DNA of 64,000 nucleotides from Halorubellus sp. JP-L1 (GTDB lineage Archaea > Halobacteriota > Halobacteria > Halobacteriales > Natrialbaceae), in the NCBI RefSeq assembly GCF_011440375.1, contig NZ_JAAOIR010000002.1, forward strand, positions 930,001 to 994,000, written 5' to 3'. The position numbers were made by a program, and so were the translations under genes. Shown here piece after piece: positions 48,755 through 54,850 of this stretch (positions are counted from its first letter, which is position 1; each line of letters starts with the position of its first letter). Below the pieces are notes generated by a model. It searched no databases and had not been told where the DNA came from. It saw only the letters and a program-made list of their open reading frames with translations.

Positions 48755-49912
48755 TCAGGCGTCGAGGAGCGACAGGAGCGCTCGTTCGACGACGCGCGCT
48801 GCCTCCTCGACGTCGCTCGCGCGGACGTACTCGCGCGGGGAGTGCGCGACCGCGCCGTCGTCGTCCGCGAGGACGCCCGGTCCGAAGACGACGGTGGGCG
48901 CGAGCGCGGCGAAGTACGACGCCTCCGTCGCTGCACCGAACGGTCGCGGGTCGCTCGCGCCGGCGTCGACGAGCGCGTCGACCACTGCGGCGTCCGGGTC
49001 GGTCGCCCACGCTTCGAGGAACGGTGTCTCCCTGTCGGTGAACGCGAAGTCGACGCCCACCTCGGCCGCGACGTGCTCGCGCACGTGCTCCAGGAGTGCC
49101 GCGCGGAATCCGTCGGCGGTCTCGGGCGGTACGGACCGCCGGTCGAGGACGACCGACGCCTGCGCGGGCACCTGGTTCGTCGCCGTGCCGCCGTCGACGA
49201 CCGTGGGCGCGAGCGTCGCCGCACCGAGCTGGTCGTGGACGGGTGGCGCGTCCGTGCGGTCGTCGAACGTCCGGATCGCCGCGAGTGCGTCTTCGAGCGC
49301 CGCGACGGCGTTCGTGCCAGACTCGGGCTCCGCCGCGTGCGCGTTCTCGCCACCGAGCGAGAGCGTTCCCTGGAACCGGCCCTTCGCCGCCGTGCACGCG
49401 GCGAGGTCGGTCGGTTCGCCGACGACGAACGCGTCCGCGTCCGCGATCGCGGGGACCGGACCACCGTCGGGTCCGCCCGCGACGAGGTGATGCGCGCCCT
49501 CGCTCAGCGTCTCCTCGTCGGGCGTCACCGCGAGCGTCACCGCGCCCCCCGGGCCGTCTCCCCCGTTTTCAGCTTCCGCGTCGCGGGCGTGGGCGGCGAG
49601 GAACCCCGCGACCAGCGCCGCCATCGGGCCGCCGGCGTCGCACGTGCCACGGCCGCGGAGGACGTCGCCGTCGCGCTCGAACGGGACGTCCGGCGGTACC
49701 GTGTCGACGTGCGTGTTCAGGACGACGTGCGGACCAGCGTCCCGGTCGCCCGCGGTCGCGAGGACGTTCCCGGCGTCGTCGACGGTCGCGTCCACGCCGC
49801 GCTCGACGAGCGCGTCCACGAGGAAGGCCCTCGCGTCCTCTACGGACTCGTGCGTCTCGAACGCCGCGAGCGACGCCAGGAAGGAGACCGGGTCGAACTG
49901 GCTCTGGGTCAC
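48755..49912 (-). CDS. dapE: M20 metallopeptidase, probable succinyl-diaminopimelate desuccinylase
   Basis: The 385-residue zinc peptidase of family M20 is the last gene of the lysine operon and probably removes succinate from N-succinyl-DAP. Metal ligands and catalytic acids are visible in VVLNTHVDTVPP, RGRGTCDAGGPMAALV, LAVTPDEETLSEGAHH and FVVGEPTDLA. The dimerisation domain carries GRFQGTLSLGGENAHAAEPESG. Other M20 activities cannot be excluded by sequence alone, but the neighbours decide the call. The start is GTG 49912, overlapping the dapF stop by 4 nt (GTGA). Confidence 0.88.
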   Translation of the reverse strand: MTQSQFDPVSFLASLAAFETHESVEDARAFLVDALVERGVDATVDDAGNVLATAGDRDAGPHVVLNTHVDTVPPDVPFERDGDVLRGRGTCDAGGPMAALVAGFLAAHARDAEAENGGDGPGGAVTLAVTPDEETLSEGAHHLVAGGPDGGPVPAIADADAFVVGEPTDLAACTAAKGRFQGTLSLGGENAHAAEPESGTNAVAALEDALAAIRTFDDRTDAPPVHDQLGAATLAPTVVDGGTATNQVPAQASVVLDRRSVPPETADGFRAALLEHVREHVAAEVGVDFAFTDRETPFLEAWATDPDAAVVDALVDAGASDPRPFGAATEASYFAALAPTVVFGPGVLADDDGAVAHSPREYVRASDVEEAARVVERALLSLLDA

Positions 49913-50766
49913 GCCTTCGGTTCCACGCGTTCGATGGACGCCGTCGCCTCGCCGTCGAACTCGTGGACGACCGGCCCCGTCAACGTCGGCGCCCCGTTCT
50001 CGGGGAACGACACGACGAGGTCGCCGCCCGGCGGCGACACGCGCACGACGTCGTCGTCGATGCGCTCGTGGACGCGCGCCGCCGCGGCGATCGCGACCGC
50101 GCCCGTCCCACAGGACGCCGTCTCGCCCTCGACGCCGCGCTCGTACGTCCGCTGGTCGAACCCGCCGTCGTCGCGCCGGGACGCAAACGTGACGTTCGCG
50201 CCCTCGGGAAACGCCTCGTGGCTCCGGATGGGTGGCGCGACCTCGTCGATGTCGACGTCGGCGACGTCCTCGACGAAGCCGACCGCGTGCGGCACGCCCG
50301 TGTTCACGCCCGTGACCGCGTAGCCCTCGAGGTCCTCGGCGAGCATCGGTTCGTCGTACGCCTCCGAGAGCGGGACGACCTCCGGCTCGAAGCGCGGTTC
50401 GCCCATCTCGATACTCACTTCGTCGCCGTCGCGGCGCGCGTGCCGCGTCCCGGCCTGCGTGTCGATCATGACCTCGTCCGCGCCCGTGCGCTCCATCGCC
50501 CACTCCGCGGCGACGCGCGCGCCGTTCCCGCACATCGCGGCCGTCGAGCCGTCGGGCTGGACGAGCGTCATCACGACCCGCGGCGGGTCGAAGCGGGCCT
50601 CGAGCGCGAGGAACAGCACGCCGTCGGCGCCGACACCGTCTGTACGATCGCAGTGCCGGGTCGCGAACGCCGCCCGGTCGGGGACGTACTCGTCCGCGTC
50701 CACGACGACGAAGTCGTTGCCGGTGCCGTTGTACTTCCGGTAGTCGACGGTGCCGTGTCCGGTCAT
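49909..50766 (-). CDS. dapF: Diaminopimelate epimerase
   Basis: The 285-residue enzyme converts LL-DAP to meso-DAP. The two catalytic cysteines lie in MCGNGARVAAEWA and in ETASCGTGAVAIA. The start YRKYNGTGNDFVVVDADE and the GVPHAVGFVED segment are typical. It follows lysA after 79 nt, but that gap is filled by a 28-codon ORF overlapping both genes. The dapF start sequence (ATGACCGGACA) is repeated at the start of that small ORF. Its stop overlaps the dapE GTG. Confidence 0.95.
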   Translation of the reverse strand: MTGHGTVDYRKYNGTGNDFVVVDADEYVPDRAAFATRHCDRTDGVGADGVLFLALEARFDPPRVVMTLVQPDGSTAAMCGNGARVAAEWAMERTGADEVMIDTQAGTRHARRDGDEVSIEMGEPRFEPEVVPLSEAYDEPMLAEDLEGYAVTGVNTGVPHAVGFVEDVADVDIDEVAPPIRSHEAFPEGANVTFASRRDDGGFDQRTYERGVEGETASCGTGAVAIAAAARVHERIDDDVVRVSPPGGDLVVSFPENGAPTLTGPVVHEFDGEATASIERVEPKA

Positions 50767-50849
50767 GGTTCTACTCGAAGGGCGTGCTGTACCGCGTTCG
50801 TCTGTCGGTGAAGGTCGGTCCGCTCTCGATCAGTTTGCTGTCCGGTCAT
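50763..50849 (-). CDS. 28-residue bridging ORF between lysA and dapF
   Basis: ATG 50847-50849 overlaps the lysA stop as ATGA. The frame (MTGQQTDRERT... ending RVEP) stops at TGA 50763-50765, which overlaps the dapF ATG in another ATGA. So lysA, this ORF and dapF are chained by two 4-nt overlaps. The 11 nt at its start, ATGACCGGACA, are identical to the start of dapF, and the preceding bases TAGAAC(T/C) also match. It is either a functional coupling peptide or the relic of a duplicated dapF start. The peptide itself has no recognised motif. No experimental support is available here. Confidence 0.5.
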   Translation of the reverse strand: MTGQQTDRERTDLHRQTNAVQHALRVEP

Positions 50850-52186
50850 AGTTCTAGAGTCGTCAGGTCGCTCAGTGGTTCGCGTCGTCGCGCGAGCGTC
50901 GCATCGTCGTCCGCGAGCACGACGCTCGCGGGCCGGGGTCGGGAGTTGTAGTTGCTCGCCATCTCGTAGCCGTACGCGCCGGCGTTCCCGAGCGCGAGGA
51001 CGTCGCCGCGACGCGGCTCGGGAAGCGGACGGTCCTCGGCGAACACGTCCGCGCTCTCGCAGATGGGGCCGGTGACGGTCGCACGCACCTCGCCGCGACC
51101 GTCACCCACTCGCGTCGCCGTATCGGCCTCGGCTGCCGACGAGGGTTCGTCGGTGCCCGAGTCTTCACCGTCGGCGCTAACGTTCCGGAGCGCGTGGTAC
51201 GCGCCGTAGATCGCGGGTCGGGCGAGCGTCGTCATGCCGGCGTCGACGCCGACGACGGTCGTCTCCGCGGTCTGCTTGACGGTGTTGACGTCGGCGAGGA
51301 GGACGCCGGCGTCGGCGACGAGGTAGCGCCCGGGTTCGACGACGAGCTCGGCGTCGACGTCGCCGAGCGCATCGCGGGTGGCGTCCGAGACCGCGTCGAG
51401 GTCCAGCGCGCCGTCGGTCTCGCGGTAGGGAACGCCGAAGCCGCCGCCGACGTCCACGAACTCGAGGTCGAACTCGGCGTCGAGGTCGCGGGCGACGTCG
51501 CCGACGCGCGCGACCATCTCGCGGTGCGCGTCGAGGTCCTCGGCGTCCTGGATGCCGGAGCCGGCGTGGGCGTGCACGCCGACGACGTCCATGCCCGCGG
51601 CGCGGGCGGTGCGTGCGACGTCGAGCGCGCGCTCGATCGGGACACCGAACTTCGCGTCGGCGCCAGTCCGGACCTTCTCGTGGTGGCCCGCGCCGACGCC
51701 GGGGTTGACGCGCACGCAGAACCGCCCGTCGTACCCGCGGTTCGCGAGGCGCGCGACGGTGTCCTCGGCGCCCGCGGTGACGGTGAGGTCCGCGGCGACA
51801 CCGTCCGTCCAGAGCTCGACGACGGTGTCGAGGTCGGGCGCTGGCGGGTTCACGGCAGTGTAGTGCACGCGGTCGCCGGGGACCCCGGCGTCGAGCGCGC
51901 GCACGACCTCGCCGGCGCTCGCGCACTCCACGCCCGCGCCGGCGTCGTGCAGGACGTCGAGGAGACGACCGAGCGCGTTCGCCTTCGCCGCGTAGTGGAC
52001 GTCCGCGTCCGGGAACGCCGCGTCGAGCCGCCGGTAGTTCTCGCGGACGCGGTCGAGGTCGAGGACGTACAGCGGACTGCCGTACTGCTCGCGGAGCGCG
52101 AGCAGGGCCTCGGCGTCCCAGTCCGCGAGCCGGCGGACCGCCGGGCCGCCGTCGAGTGCCGAACGCCCCGCGGACTGGTCGGTCAT
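50846..52186 (-). CDS. lysA: Diaminopimelate decarboxylase
   Basis: The 446-residue PLP enzyme decarboxylates meso-DAP to lysine. The Schiff-base Lys is in VHYAAKANALGRLL, the glycine-rich phosphate loop in FVDVGGGFGVPY, the substrate arginine region in VVEPGRYLVADAG, and the active-site Cys in TGPICESADVF. A disordered acidic insertion (DGEDSGTDEPSSAAEADTAT) interrupts the C-terminal domain. The ATG overlaps the dapD stop by 4 nt. Confidence 0.95.
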   Translation of the reverse strand: MTDQSAGRSALDGGPAVRRLADWDAEALLALREQYGSPLYVLDLDRVRENYRRLDAAFPDADVHYAAKANALGRLLDVLHDAGAGVECASAGEVVRALDAGVPGDRVHYTAVNPPAPDLDTVVELWTDGVAADLTVTAGAEDTVARLANRGYDGRFCVRVNPGVGAGHHEKVRTGADAKFGVPIERALDVARTARAAGMDVVGVHAHAGSGIQDAEDLDAHREMVARVGDVARDLDAEFDLEFVDVGGGFGVPYRETDGALDLDAVSDATRDALGDVDAELVVEPGRYLVADAGVLLADVNTVKQTAETTVVGVDAGMTTLARPAIYGAYHALRNVSADGEDSGTDEPSSAAEADTATRVGDGRGEVRATVTGPICESADVFAEDRPLPEPRRGDVLALGNAGAYGYEMASNYNSRPRPASVVLADDDATLARRREPLSDLTTLEL

Positions 52187-53040
52187 TCCCGGAGCACCTC
52201 CTCGCGCTCGGTCGCCTCCAGCGTCTCCGCTTCCAGCGACGTCGCGACGACCGCGGGCTTGTAGGCGCTGCCAGGTATCAGGTCCTCGTCGCTCACGCTC
52301 GATTCGACGTACCGCTGGAACGCGCGCCGGTTCGCGGGTAACTCGCCGTAGTAAACCTCGTCGTCGACGAGGTCGTAGACGGGGATGCGCGGCGTGAGAA
52401 GGGTGTTCTCGCCGACGACCGAATTCTCGCCGACGACGAACCCGGACGTCACGCGACAGCCCGCGCCGAGGGAGACGCCGTCCTCCACGACGACCGGCGT
52501 TCCCTCGACGGGTTCGAGCACGCCACCGATCAGCGCGTTCGCGCCGAGCTTCACGTCCGCCCCGATCTGCGCGCAACTGCCGACGGTGTCGCAGGAGTCG
52601 ACGAGCGTGCCGTCGCCGACGTGCGCGCCGATGTTCACGAACGACGGCGACATCAGGATGCAGTCCGCGCCGACGTGCGCGCCGGCCCGGACGACGGTGC
52701 CGTCGGGCGTGTTCCGCGACCCACGCTGGCCGTAGTCGCTCGTATCCTGGAGGGGGAGGACGTCGTTGTAGGTGACGCCCCCGTACTCGTACTGGTCGAT
52801 GCCGTGGGTCGCGAACACGAGGAGGATGCCTTGCTTCACCCACTCGTTGGCTTCCCACGCGTCAGCACGGCCACCGTCCGCGCCGTCGCCGCTCCCGGTC
52901 GGTTCCGCGGCGCGGACCTCGCCCGACTCGAGCGCGCCGAGGAACTCGTGGAGGACGTCGTGGACGTGCTCGGCGTCCGCGTCCAGTTCGCCGGCCTCGT
53001 GTGCCGCCCAGAGGTCGGCGACGTCTGCGTCCAGACTCAT
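52183..53040 (-). CDS. dapD: Tetrahydrodipicolinate N-succinyltransferase
   Basis: The 285-residue transferase adds succinyl to tetrahydrodipicolinate. The central part is a left-handed beta helix of hexapeptides (VNIGAHVGDGTLVDSCDTVG, CAQIGADVKLGANALIGGVL). A helical N-terminus precedes it, and the C-terminal segment is YDLVDDEVYYGELPANRRAF. It shows that this lineage uses the succinylase branch rather than the dehydrogenase branch. An acidic/Gly insert (GSGDGADGGRAD) lies at about residue 50. It overlaps both neighbours by 4 nt. Confidence 0.94.
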   Translation of the reverse strand: MSLDADVADLWAAHEAGELDADAEHVHDVLHEFLGALESGEVRAAEPTGSGDGADGGRADAWEANEWVKQGILLVFATHGIDQYEYGGVTYNDVLPLQDTSDYGQRGSRNTPDGTVVRAGAHVGADCILMSPSFVNIGAHVGDGTLVDSCDTVGSCAQIGADVKLGANALIGGVLEPVEGTPVVVEDGVSLGAGCRVTSGFVVGENSVVGENTLLTPRIPVYDLVDDEVYYGELPANRRAFQRYVESSVSDEDLIPGSAYKPAVVATSLEAETLEATEREEVLRE

Positions 53041-53918
53041 TGCTCGTCACCTGCGTCTACGGGTACTTGACCGCCGTCGGTACCGACGATATCTGCGGGA
53101 TCGTCGGGGTCGCCGACGCCCGGCCTGTCGTCGTCGACCGCGACGACGTCCGCGAACTCGTACCAGCCCGCGTCCCGGCTCGATAGCCACTCGGCGGCGT
53201 CGAGCGCGCCGGCGGCGAACACGCCGCGGTCGGTCGCGCGGTGCTGGAGGCGCAGTTCCTCGTGGTTCCCCGCGATGACGAGTTCGTGTTCCCCCGGGAC
53301 GTCGCCGGCGCGCAGCGAGTGCACGCCGACCTCGCCAGGTTCGCGGCGAGACTCGCCCTCGCGGCCGTGGACGCGCTCGCCGCTCGCGGCGCCCGCGTCG
53401 ATACCGTGGTCCTCGCGTGCGGCGTCGACCGCGTCGAGCATCGCCACGGCGGTCCCGCTCGGCGCGTCCCGCTTCCCGTTGTGATGCGCCTCGACGAGTT
53501 CCACGTCGTACCCCGGCAGTGCGGCGACCGCGTCCCCGACGACCCCAAGGAGCGCCTGGACGCCGCGCGCGAAGTTCGCCGCCTGCAGGACCGGAACCTC
53601 GTCCGCCGCCGCGTCGAGCGCCGCCTGCTGGTCGTCGCTCAGGCCCGTCGTGCCGGTGACGAACGCGACGCCGGCCGCCGCGCACGCCTCGGCGTACTCG
53701 ACGGTCGACTCGGGCCCCGTGAAGTCCACGACGACGTTCGGTTCGTGGGTCGCCAGCAGCGACGCGAAGTCGTCGCTCGCGGCCACGTCGACGCCCGCGA
53801 TCGGCGACGCTGGCGGGTTCCGCGCCGTCGCGAACGCGACGTCGACGTCGCGGTCGACGGCCGCCTCGAGCACCTCGCCGCCCGTCCGCCCGGTCGCGCC
53901 CGTGACCGCGACGCGCAT
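53037..53918 (-). CDS. dapB: 4-hydroxy-tetrahydrodipicolinate reductase
   Basis: The 293-residue NAD(P)H reductase carries out the second lysine-branch step. The Rossmann start is VAVTGATGRTGGEVL, and VVVDFTGPESTVEYA and FVTGTTGLSDDQQAAL follow. The catalytic motif is EAHHNGKRDAPSGTAVAML. After the catalytic domain an acidic tail of about 35 residues (VDDDRPGVGDPDDPADIVGT...) extends beyond usual DapB length. The gene overlaps dapA by one base and dapD by 4 nt. Confidence 0.94.
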   Translation of the reverse strand: MRVAVTGATGRTGGEVLEAAVDRDVDVAFATARNPPASPIAGVDVAASDDFASLLATHEPNVVVDFTGPESTVEYAEACAAAGVAFVTGTTGLSDDQQAALDAAADEVPVLQAANFARGVQALLGVVGDAVAALPGYDVELVEAHHNGKRDAPSGTAVAMLDAVDAAREDHGIDAGAASGERVHGREGESRREPGEVGVHSLRAGDVPGEHELVIAGNHEELRLQHRATDRGVFAAGALDAAEWLSSRDAGWYEFADVVAVDDDRPGVGDPDDPADIVGTDGGQVPVDAGDEQ

Positions 53919-54850
53919 CAGGAGTCCACCTCCGCGAGCCGGTCGTGGTCCGAGTGCTGCGTATATTCGTCGAGGTCGTCGAGGACGGCCTCGAGGTCGT
54001 CGCGGTACTCGTCCGCGAGCCGGGAGAGCGGCGATCGGAGCGTCGGGCCGTGGTGGCCGCGGACGTGCATCGCCTCCTTGACGGGGATCGGGTTCGTCTC
54101 CCAGAACAGCGCGCGCGTCAGGTCGCCGAGCTCGTGGTGGATGTCGCGCGCGGTCTCGTAGTCGCCGGCCAGCGCCGCGCCGACCATCGCGGTCGTCCGC
54201 TCCGGTTCGACGTTCGCGACGACCGAGATCGTCCCGTGGCCGCCGATCGAGAGGATGGGGAGCGTGAGCGCGTCGTCGCCGGAGAGCACCGCGAAGTCGT
54301 CGTCGCGCGTGCGTTCGATTATCTCCGTGATCTGCCCGAGGTCGCCGGAGGCGGCCTTGAACCCGACGACGTTCTCGTGGTCGGCGAGCGCGACCGCGGT
54401 ATCCGGCTCGATGTTGCGGCCGGTCCGCGAGGGCACGTTGTAGACGATCTGGGGGGCGTCGATCTCGTCGGCGAGCGTCTCGTAGTGCGAGCGGAGGCCG
54501 CGCTGCTCGGGCTTGTTGTAGTACGGCGAGATGAGGAGGAGCGCGTCCGCGCCGGCGTCGACCGAGCGCTGACCGAGGTCGAGCGCCTCTCGCGTGTTGT
54601 TCGACCCGGCGCCCGCGATGACGGGGACGTCGTCGACCGCGTCGACGACCGCTTCGACGACCTCGACGTGTTCGTCGTGACTGAGCGTCGCGGACTCGCC
54701 GGTGGAGCCGACGGGGACGACGCCGTCGACGCCGGCGGCCTCGACGCGCTGGGCGTTCTCGCGGAGGGTCTGGAAGTCGATGCTGCCGTCCGTGGTCATG
54801 GGTGTGGTGAGTGCGGGGTGAACGCCGCGAAGGTCGATGTCGTGTGTCAT
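53918..54850 (-). CDS. dapA: 4-hydroxy-tetrahydrodipicolinate synthase
   Basis: The 310-residue TIM-barrel aldolase condenses pyruvate with aspartate semialdehyde and opens the lysine branch. Conserved parts are GVHPALTTPMTTDGSID, VVPVGSTGESATLSHDEH, LLLISPYYNKPEQRGL (Tyr), IVYNVPSRTGRNI and the Schiff-base Lys in VVGFKAASGDLGQI. It is the first gene of the six-gene lysine operon. The start is the ATG giving MTHDIDLRGVHPA. Confidence 0.95.
   Translation of the reverse strand: MTHDIDLRGVHPALTTPMTTDGSIDFQTLRENAQRVEAAGVDGVVPVGSTGESATLSHDEHVEVVEAVVDAVDDVPVIAGAGSNNTREALDLGQRSVDAGADALLLISPYYNKPEQRGLRSHYETLADEIDAPQIVYNVPSRTGRNIEPDTAVALADHENVVGFKAASGDLGQITEIIERTRDDDFAVLSGDDALTLPILSIGGHGTISVVANVEPERTTAMVGAALAGDYETARDIHHELGDLTRALFWETNPIPVKEAMHVRGHHGPTLRSPLSRLADEYRDDLEAVLDDLDEYTQHSDHDRLAEVDS

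Follow-up and report, generated by a model that had tools for sequence, protein, structure and literature searches.

How might dapF stay coupled to lysA in Halorubellus sp. JP-L1? In the window, the 64,000-nt stretch of DNA analyzed here, the dap operon lies on the minus strand, and its junctions other than lysA-dapF overlap. The dapA gene (53918..54850; TIGR00674) overlaps dapB (53037..53918; TIGR00036) by 1 nt, and overlaps of 4 nt join dapB to dapD (52183..53040; NF008808), dapD to lysA, encoding diaminopimelate decarboxylase (50846..52186; TIGR01048), and dapF, encoding diaminopimelate epimerase (49909..50766; TIGR00652), to a gene for a dapE-type succinyl-diaminopimelate desuccinylase (48755..49912; NF006402), each model matching above its cut-off. 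These overlaps of 1 to 4 nt agree with the preliminary description of this DNA. Between lysA and dapF, there is a gap of 79 nt. Overlapping genes of Haloferax volcanii rely on termination-reinitiation for their coupling (Huber et al. 2019, PMC6728339), which falls by 60% at a distance of 13 nt and is lost altogether at 22 nt (Huber et al. 2023, PMC10666635). Because 22 nt abolishes reinitiation in Haloferax, the 79-nt spacer should uncouple dapF unless ribosomes are carried over it.

A 28-codon frame fills the lysA-dapF gap

Reading the sequence of the gap, we found a micro-ORF of 28 codons plus TGA (MTGQQTDRERTDLHRQTNAVQHALRVEP) at positions 50763..50849 of the minus strand. Its ATG (50849-50847) overlaps the lysA stop codon TGA (50848-50846) in an ATGA motif at 50846..50849, and its own TGA (50765-50763) overlaps the dapF ATG (50766-50764) in a second ATGA motif at 50763..50766. 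Both ends therefore show the 4-or-1-nt stop/start overlap of a termination-reinitiation coupled pair. Both are also marked by an 18-nt direct repeat on the minus strand, whose upstream copy (TAGAACTATGACCGGACA; 50839..50856) and downstream copy (TAGAACCATGACCGGACA; 50756..50773) are spaced 83 nt apart and identical at 17 of 18 positions; the repeat has two copies in the whole 3.76-Mb genome, both at this junction. The double overlap and the repetition of the dapF start region at the start of the micro-ORF, which had been reported previously, were thus both confirmed.

The probability that an in-phase open frame occurs by chance between two ATGA motifs 83 nt apart is about 0.16 for a single locus, and for this reason, the lysA-dapF locus alone is weak evidence. 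The gap could be an ordinary spacer that happens to be open, with dapF initiated independently or after scanning. Such a spacer would account for the codon usage of the micro-ORF, which is that of spacer, and for the unbridged gaps tolerated by the genus g70 and by Haloglomus. Scanning, however, is rare or absent in Haloferax, where long-range scanning was rejected by experiment (PMC10666635). Furthermore, the comparative data across relatives indicate that the micro-ORF is more than chance: an in-phase frame recurs, with other lengths and sequences, in Halorubellus salinus, in six species of genus g52, and at other junctions, and genome-wide bridging exceeds that of phase-shifted controls. 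We therefore regard a chance frame as unlikely.

The frame resembles neither a gene nor a regulatory RNA

Being open, correctly started and stopped, and located inside an operon, the frame could encode a 28-residue microprotein with a function of its own. However, its GC3 is 0.54 compared to 0.915 in genes, its coding score is about -12, and a Pfam search of the peptide returned no match. No conserved peptide was found between the 28 residues of JP-L1 and the 39 residues encoded in H. salinus, and the frame is missing from the sister genus, making a microprotein extremely improbable; a conserved microprotein gene was rejected for the lack of a family, the lack of conservation, and the wrong codon usage. 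Of the idea of a translated coupling peptide, the coupling is supported, in that the frame keeps its phase in different species and at different junctions; the peptide itself is neither conserved nor codon biased.

Short ORFs upstream of biosynthetic genes are often regulatory, and the frame could be a leader or attenuator acting on dapF in answer to lysine or another signal. An Rfam search of the junction matched no family, its RNA fold was not unusual (z-score of -0.15), and the identical architecture exists at unrelated junctions (srp19-gar1 and cheA-cheC). Together with the lack of a conserved peptide, this makes regulation of this kind very unlikely, and the "brake on dapF" that had been suggested is unsupported. 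Two further candidates were rejected: a cis-regulatory RNA, as neither an Rfam family nor a stable structure was found, and a mobile or dispersed repeat, as the 113-nt junction occurs in full only once in the genome, its other matches spanning 14 to 36 nt. A scan of the gap for a promoter with one simple pattern detected no TATA-like hexamer.

The bridge is conserved in phase in H. salinus

We compared 185 distinct haloarchaeal lysA-dapF junctions, i.e., 184 from other haloarchaea and that of the window. The direct 4-nt ATGA overlap was the commonest state (104 of 185), and spacings between -13 and +10 nt were found at 44 of the 184 junctions from other haloarchaea. In the sister genus g2, lysA and dapF are joined by a direct ATGA overlap and the micro-ORF is absent. 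Judging from these sequences, the direct overlap is probably the ancestral state.

The congener comparison involved two Halorubellus genomes, that of JP-L1 (G000) and that of H. salinus. In the latter, the lysA-dapF gap measures 112 nt and is spanned by a frame of 39 codons that has an ATGA overlap at each end. This frame is 33 nt longer than that of JP-L1 and unlike it in sequence, the interiors of the two micro-ORFs aligning weakly (shuffle P = 0.028). The frame is thus conserved in phase despite its changed sequence and length.

Frames broken in relatives with an intact dapF had been named as evidence against a role of the micro-ORF. The frame was kept in H. salinus, with both ATGA overlaps, and in all six gapped g52 species. 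Gaps without a bridge do occur in a small number of unrelated lineages, namely, g70 (20 to 21 nt), Haloglomus (77 to 80 nt), and part of g23. Because of these gaps, coupling is not strictly needed in haloarchaea.

A bridged junction can also be reached by another route, the fission of the LysA C-terminal tail. At loci L053, L058, and L086, LysA tails severed by frameshift survive as GTG-started frames that overlap both neighbors; the L053/L058 micro-ORF ends in ADRKNDHDRATDTDNDQVR, an ending like that of LysA tails in its genus; L086/L088 represent a similar case. By the same process, a frameshift in Halorubellus could have created an early TGA and left the old tail as a separate frame. However, JP-L1 LysA terminates at its normal position (..LTTLEL), as it does in relatives with direct coupling, and the 18-nt repeat at the junction favors duplication. 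We consider fission highly improbable here, and its result would be a relay all the same.

Bridges in genus g52

The genus g52 includes five species with the direct ATGA overlap and six with a gap. The six gaps measure 19, 22, 25, 28, 31, and 34 nt, all 1 mod 3, and in each a frame 8 to 13 codons long runs from the lysA stop to the dapF start. These frames mostly begin like dapF (MIP..), and their overlaps are ATGA in five of the six species and TAATG in the sixth. In species L161, an exact 19-nt junction repeat (CCCCAGAACGATGATTCCC) surrounds the gap. The probability that five random phase changes would all remain in phase is about 0.004. From their sequences, these bridges appear to have been made by junction duplication in an unrelated genus, independently of Halorubellus. 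The history proposed earlier, a duplication of an ancestral lysA-dapF overlap that kept the coupling, is well supported by the L161 repeat, the predominance of direct overlaps, and the state of g2.

A proposed relay from lysA to dapF

We propose that the lysA-dapF frame is a sequence-independent stop-start relay coupling dapF translation to that of lysA, and we judge this to be likely. A ribosome would terminate lysA at its TGA and reinitiate on the overlapping ATG, read 28 arbitrary codons, stop at the TGA overlapping the dapF ATG, and reinitiate on dapF. The micro-ORF would accordingly be translated, reinitiation would take place twice, and dapF output would depend on the frame, three points that we infer from the arrangement of the sequence. 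With such a relay, dapF would stay coupled to lysA despite the 79 nt between them, a distance at which coupling would otherwise be lost. The gap itself probably arose from duplication of the ancestral lysA-dapF ATGA junction, and selection would act on the reading frame and both of its ends, not on the peptide. A relay would explain why the peptide sequence is free, why the length varies freely in steps of three, why the ends are fixed, and why the arrangement recurs at unrelated junctions. Since the frame but not the peptide is conserved, here and at several other junctions, a relay function is the most likely one.

Four bridged junctions differ in length by multiples of three

Four orthologous junctions of unequal gap length are bridged by frames in both Halorubellus species: lysA-dapF, srp19-gar1, one pair of membrane-protein genes, and a pair that by eye resembles a nucleotide kinase and a CDP-alcohol phosphatidyltransferase. 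In the order lysA-dapF, srp19-gar1, kinase-like pair, membrane-protein pair, their gap lengths in JP-L1 and H. salinus are 79/112, 145/61, 40/13, and 82/28 nt, and every one of the differences is a multiple of three, compared to 5 of 16 unbridged orthologous gaps of unequal length taken as a control (Fisher P = 0.026). The cheA-cheC junction, also named by eye, is bridged in both species at equal length (MNDYNP and MRANKP). At a thiolase junction, there is a bridge in JP-L1 and a direct overlap in H. salinus, and two bridges are not conserved.

The srp19 and gar1 genes (JP-L1 contig C1:328927-329579, locus L408; H. salinus, L409) lie -4 to +8 nt apart in each of the 28 other genera sampled; gaps appear in that sample only in Halorubellus, and both are bridged. 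The 145-nt gap of JP-L1 is partly made of 30-nt tandem units in frame (GVESVRTPAL repeats). At cheC-cheD (JP-L1 contig C1:86325-88149), the 13-nt gap of H. salinus carries a bridge; the 57-nt gap of JP-L1 is out of phase, and there cheD is preceded by a strong GGAGGAGGT motif. This is possibly a switch from coupling to independent initiation.

Bridged gaps are in excess genome-wide

To count bridges, we scanned 864 kb of the JP-L1 genome, consisting of 800 kb of contig C1 and the window, with our own codon-usage gene caller, whose starts were verified by homology only at the junctions compared with H. salinus. A same-strand gap of 15 to 200 nt was eligible if an ATG or GTG overlapped the stop codon of the upstream gene, and it was called bridged when the stop of that frame overlapped the start of the next gene. 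Thirteen of 55 eligible gaps, lysA-dapF included, were bridged. After shifting the phase by +1 or +2 nt, 4.1 to 5.3 bridges were expected (binomial P = 6e-4), and a shuffle control gave 6.0 ± 2.3 (P = 0.007); these statistics are modest, and the tests were devised once the pattern was already apparent. The coding score was negative in 10 of the 13 bridging frames, and some of the 13 may be fortuitous or contain genes that the caller missed. The excess was weak in a g52 genome, where 5 of 20 gaps in 400 kb were bridged and 2.5 were expected (P = 0.10).

We lean toward the view that relay micro-ORFs, about 6 to 50 codons long, form a class of their own in haloarchaeal genomes, at least in Halorubellus. 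They would be selected only for their frame and overlapping ends and would form when a duplication, an insertion, or a frameshift widens a coupled junction. Across gaps that would otherwise uncouple the genes, they would transmit termination-reinitiation. Current annotation discards them as spacer.

Starts after bridges resemble coupled starts

Counting Shine-Dalgarno (SD)-like motifs of five or more bases, we found one before the downstream start in 42 of 70 direct overlaps, 7 of 12 relays, and 13 of 125 unbridged gaps (relays versus unbridged gaps, Fisher P = 2.5e-4). Starts that follow a bridge therefore resemble coupled starts, their SD frequency being like that of direct overlaps. In JP-L1, no SD motif was found before the micro-ORF or before dapF; in H. 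salinus, dapF is preceded by GGAGGTG. An SD motif is not essential for reinitiation in Haloferax (PMC6728339).

Comparison with known systems

The closest parallel is termination-reinitiation at ATGA/TGATG overlaps (PMC6728339, PMC10666635), with which the relay shares the overlap motif, here at both ends, the group of organisms, and the setting between operon genes on one strand; its downstream starts also carry SD-like motifs as often as those of overlapping pairs. However, those studies dealt with pairs of real genes and took gaps of more than 20 nt as uncoupled, whereas at lysA-dapF a nonconserved micro-ORF fills the gap and two events would occur in series.

In mycobacteria, the MIRU elements, as summarized in PMC12548453, carry a short ORF that is coupled, at a spacing of -4 nt, to the gene next to the insertion, and the lysA-dapF micro-ORF likewise has a spacing of -4 nt to dapF. 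According to the same summary, MIRU insertion has little effect on expression, and these elements are dispersed, apparently mobile repeats. In contrast, the lysA-dapF relay is single copy, relays differ from junction to junction, and both this one and those of g52 appear to have originated by local duplication. A further parallel is offered by coupling uORFs and bicistronic-design leaders, which also use a short ORF that merely delivers the ribosome to the next start, but they rely on de novo initiation in the leader (PMC12548453), whereas the lysA-dapF micro-ORF appears to depend on reinitiation from lysA and so would transmit coupling. Finally, the minigene before txe in the axe-txe operon is an operon mini-ORF that boosts downstream translation in cis, for which spacing matters and peptide length matters little (PMC8708949). 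Unlike the relay, it has two codons, its own SD, a proposed role in mRNA protection, and no double-overlap bridge (PMC8708949). Targeted searches of the openly licensed literature found no description of the bridging architecture, a weak indication that the bridging role may be new.

If the relay is real, it would explain how operon coupling is kept at distances beyond the reach of haloarchaeal reinitiation, and it would be a case in which a reading frame is under selection while the encoded peptide is not. The bridged junctions would then serve as a natural set of constructs for telling strict termination-reinitiation apart from scanning, and small ORFs detected between operon genes by ribosome profiling may be relays rather than genes.

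Other states of the lysA-dapF junction

Genus g70 (L112, L118, L121, and L222-L236) has a conserved, unbridged spacer of 20 to 21 nt (CCAAGCACCCACACAGAACC) in which the stop reads CTGA and no start codon is present, providing a natural uncoupled control. At L026-L047 and related loci (genera g15, g9, and g23), LysA carries a long, charged, low-complexity C-terminal tail whose TAG lies four nucleotides upstream of dapF (TAG-CACG-ATG), a second way to hold the two genes close.
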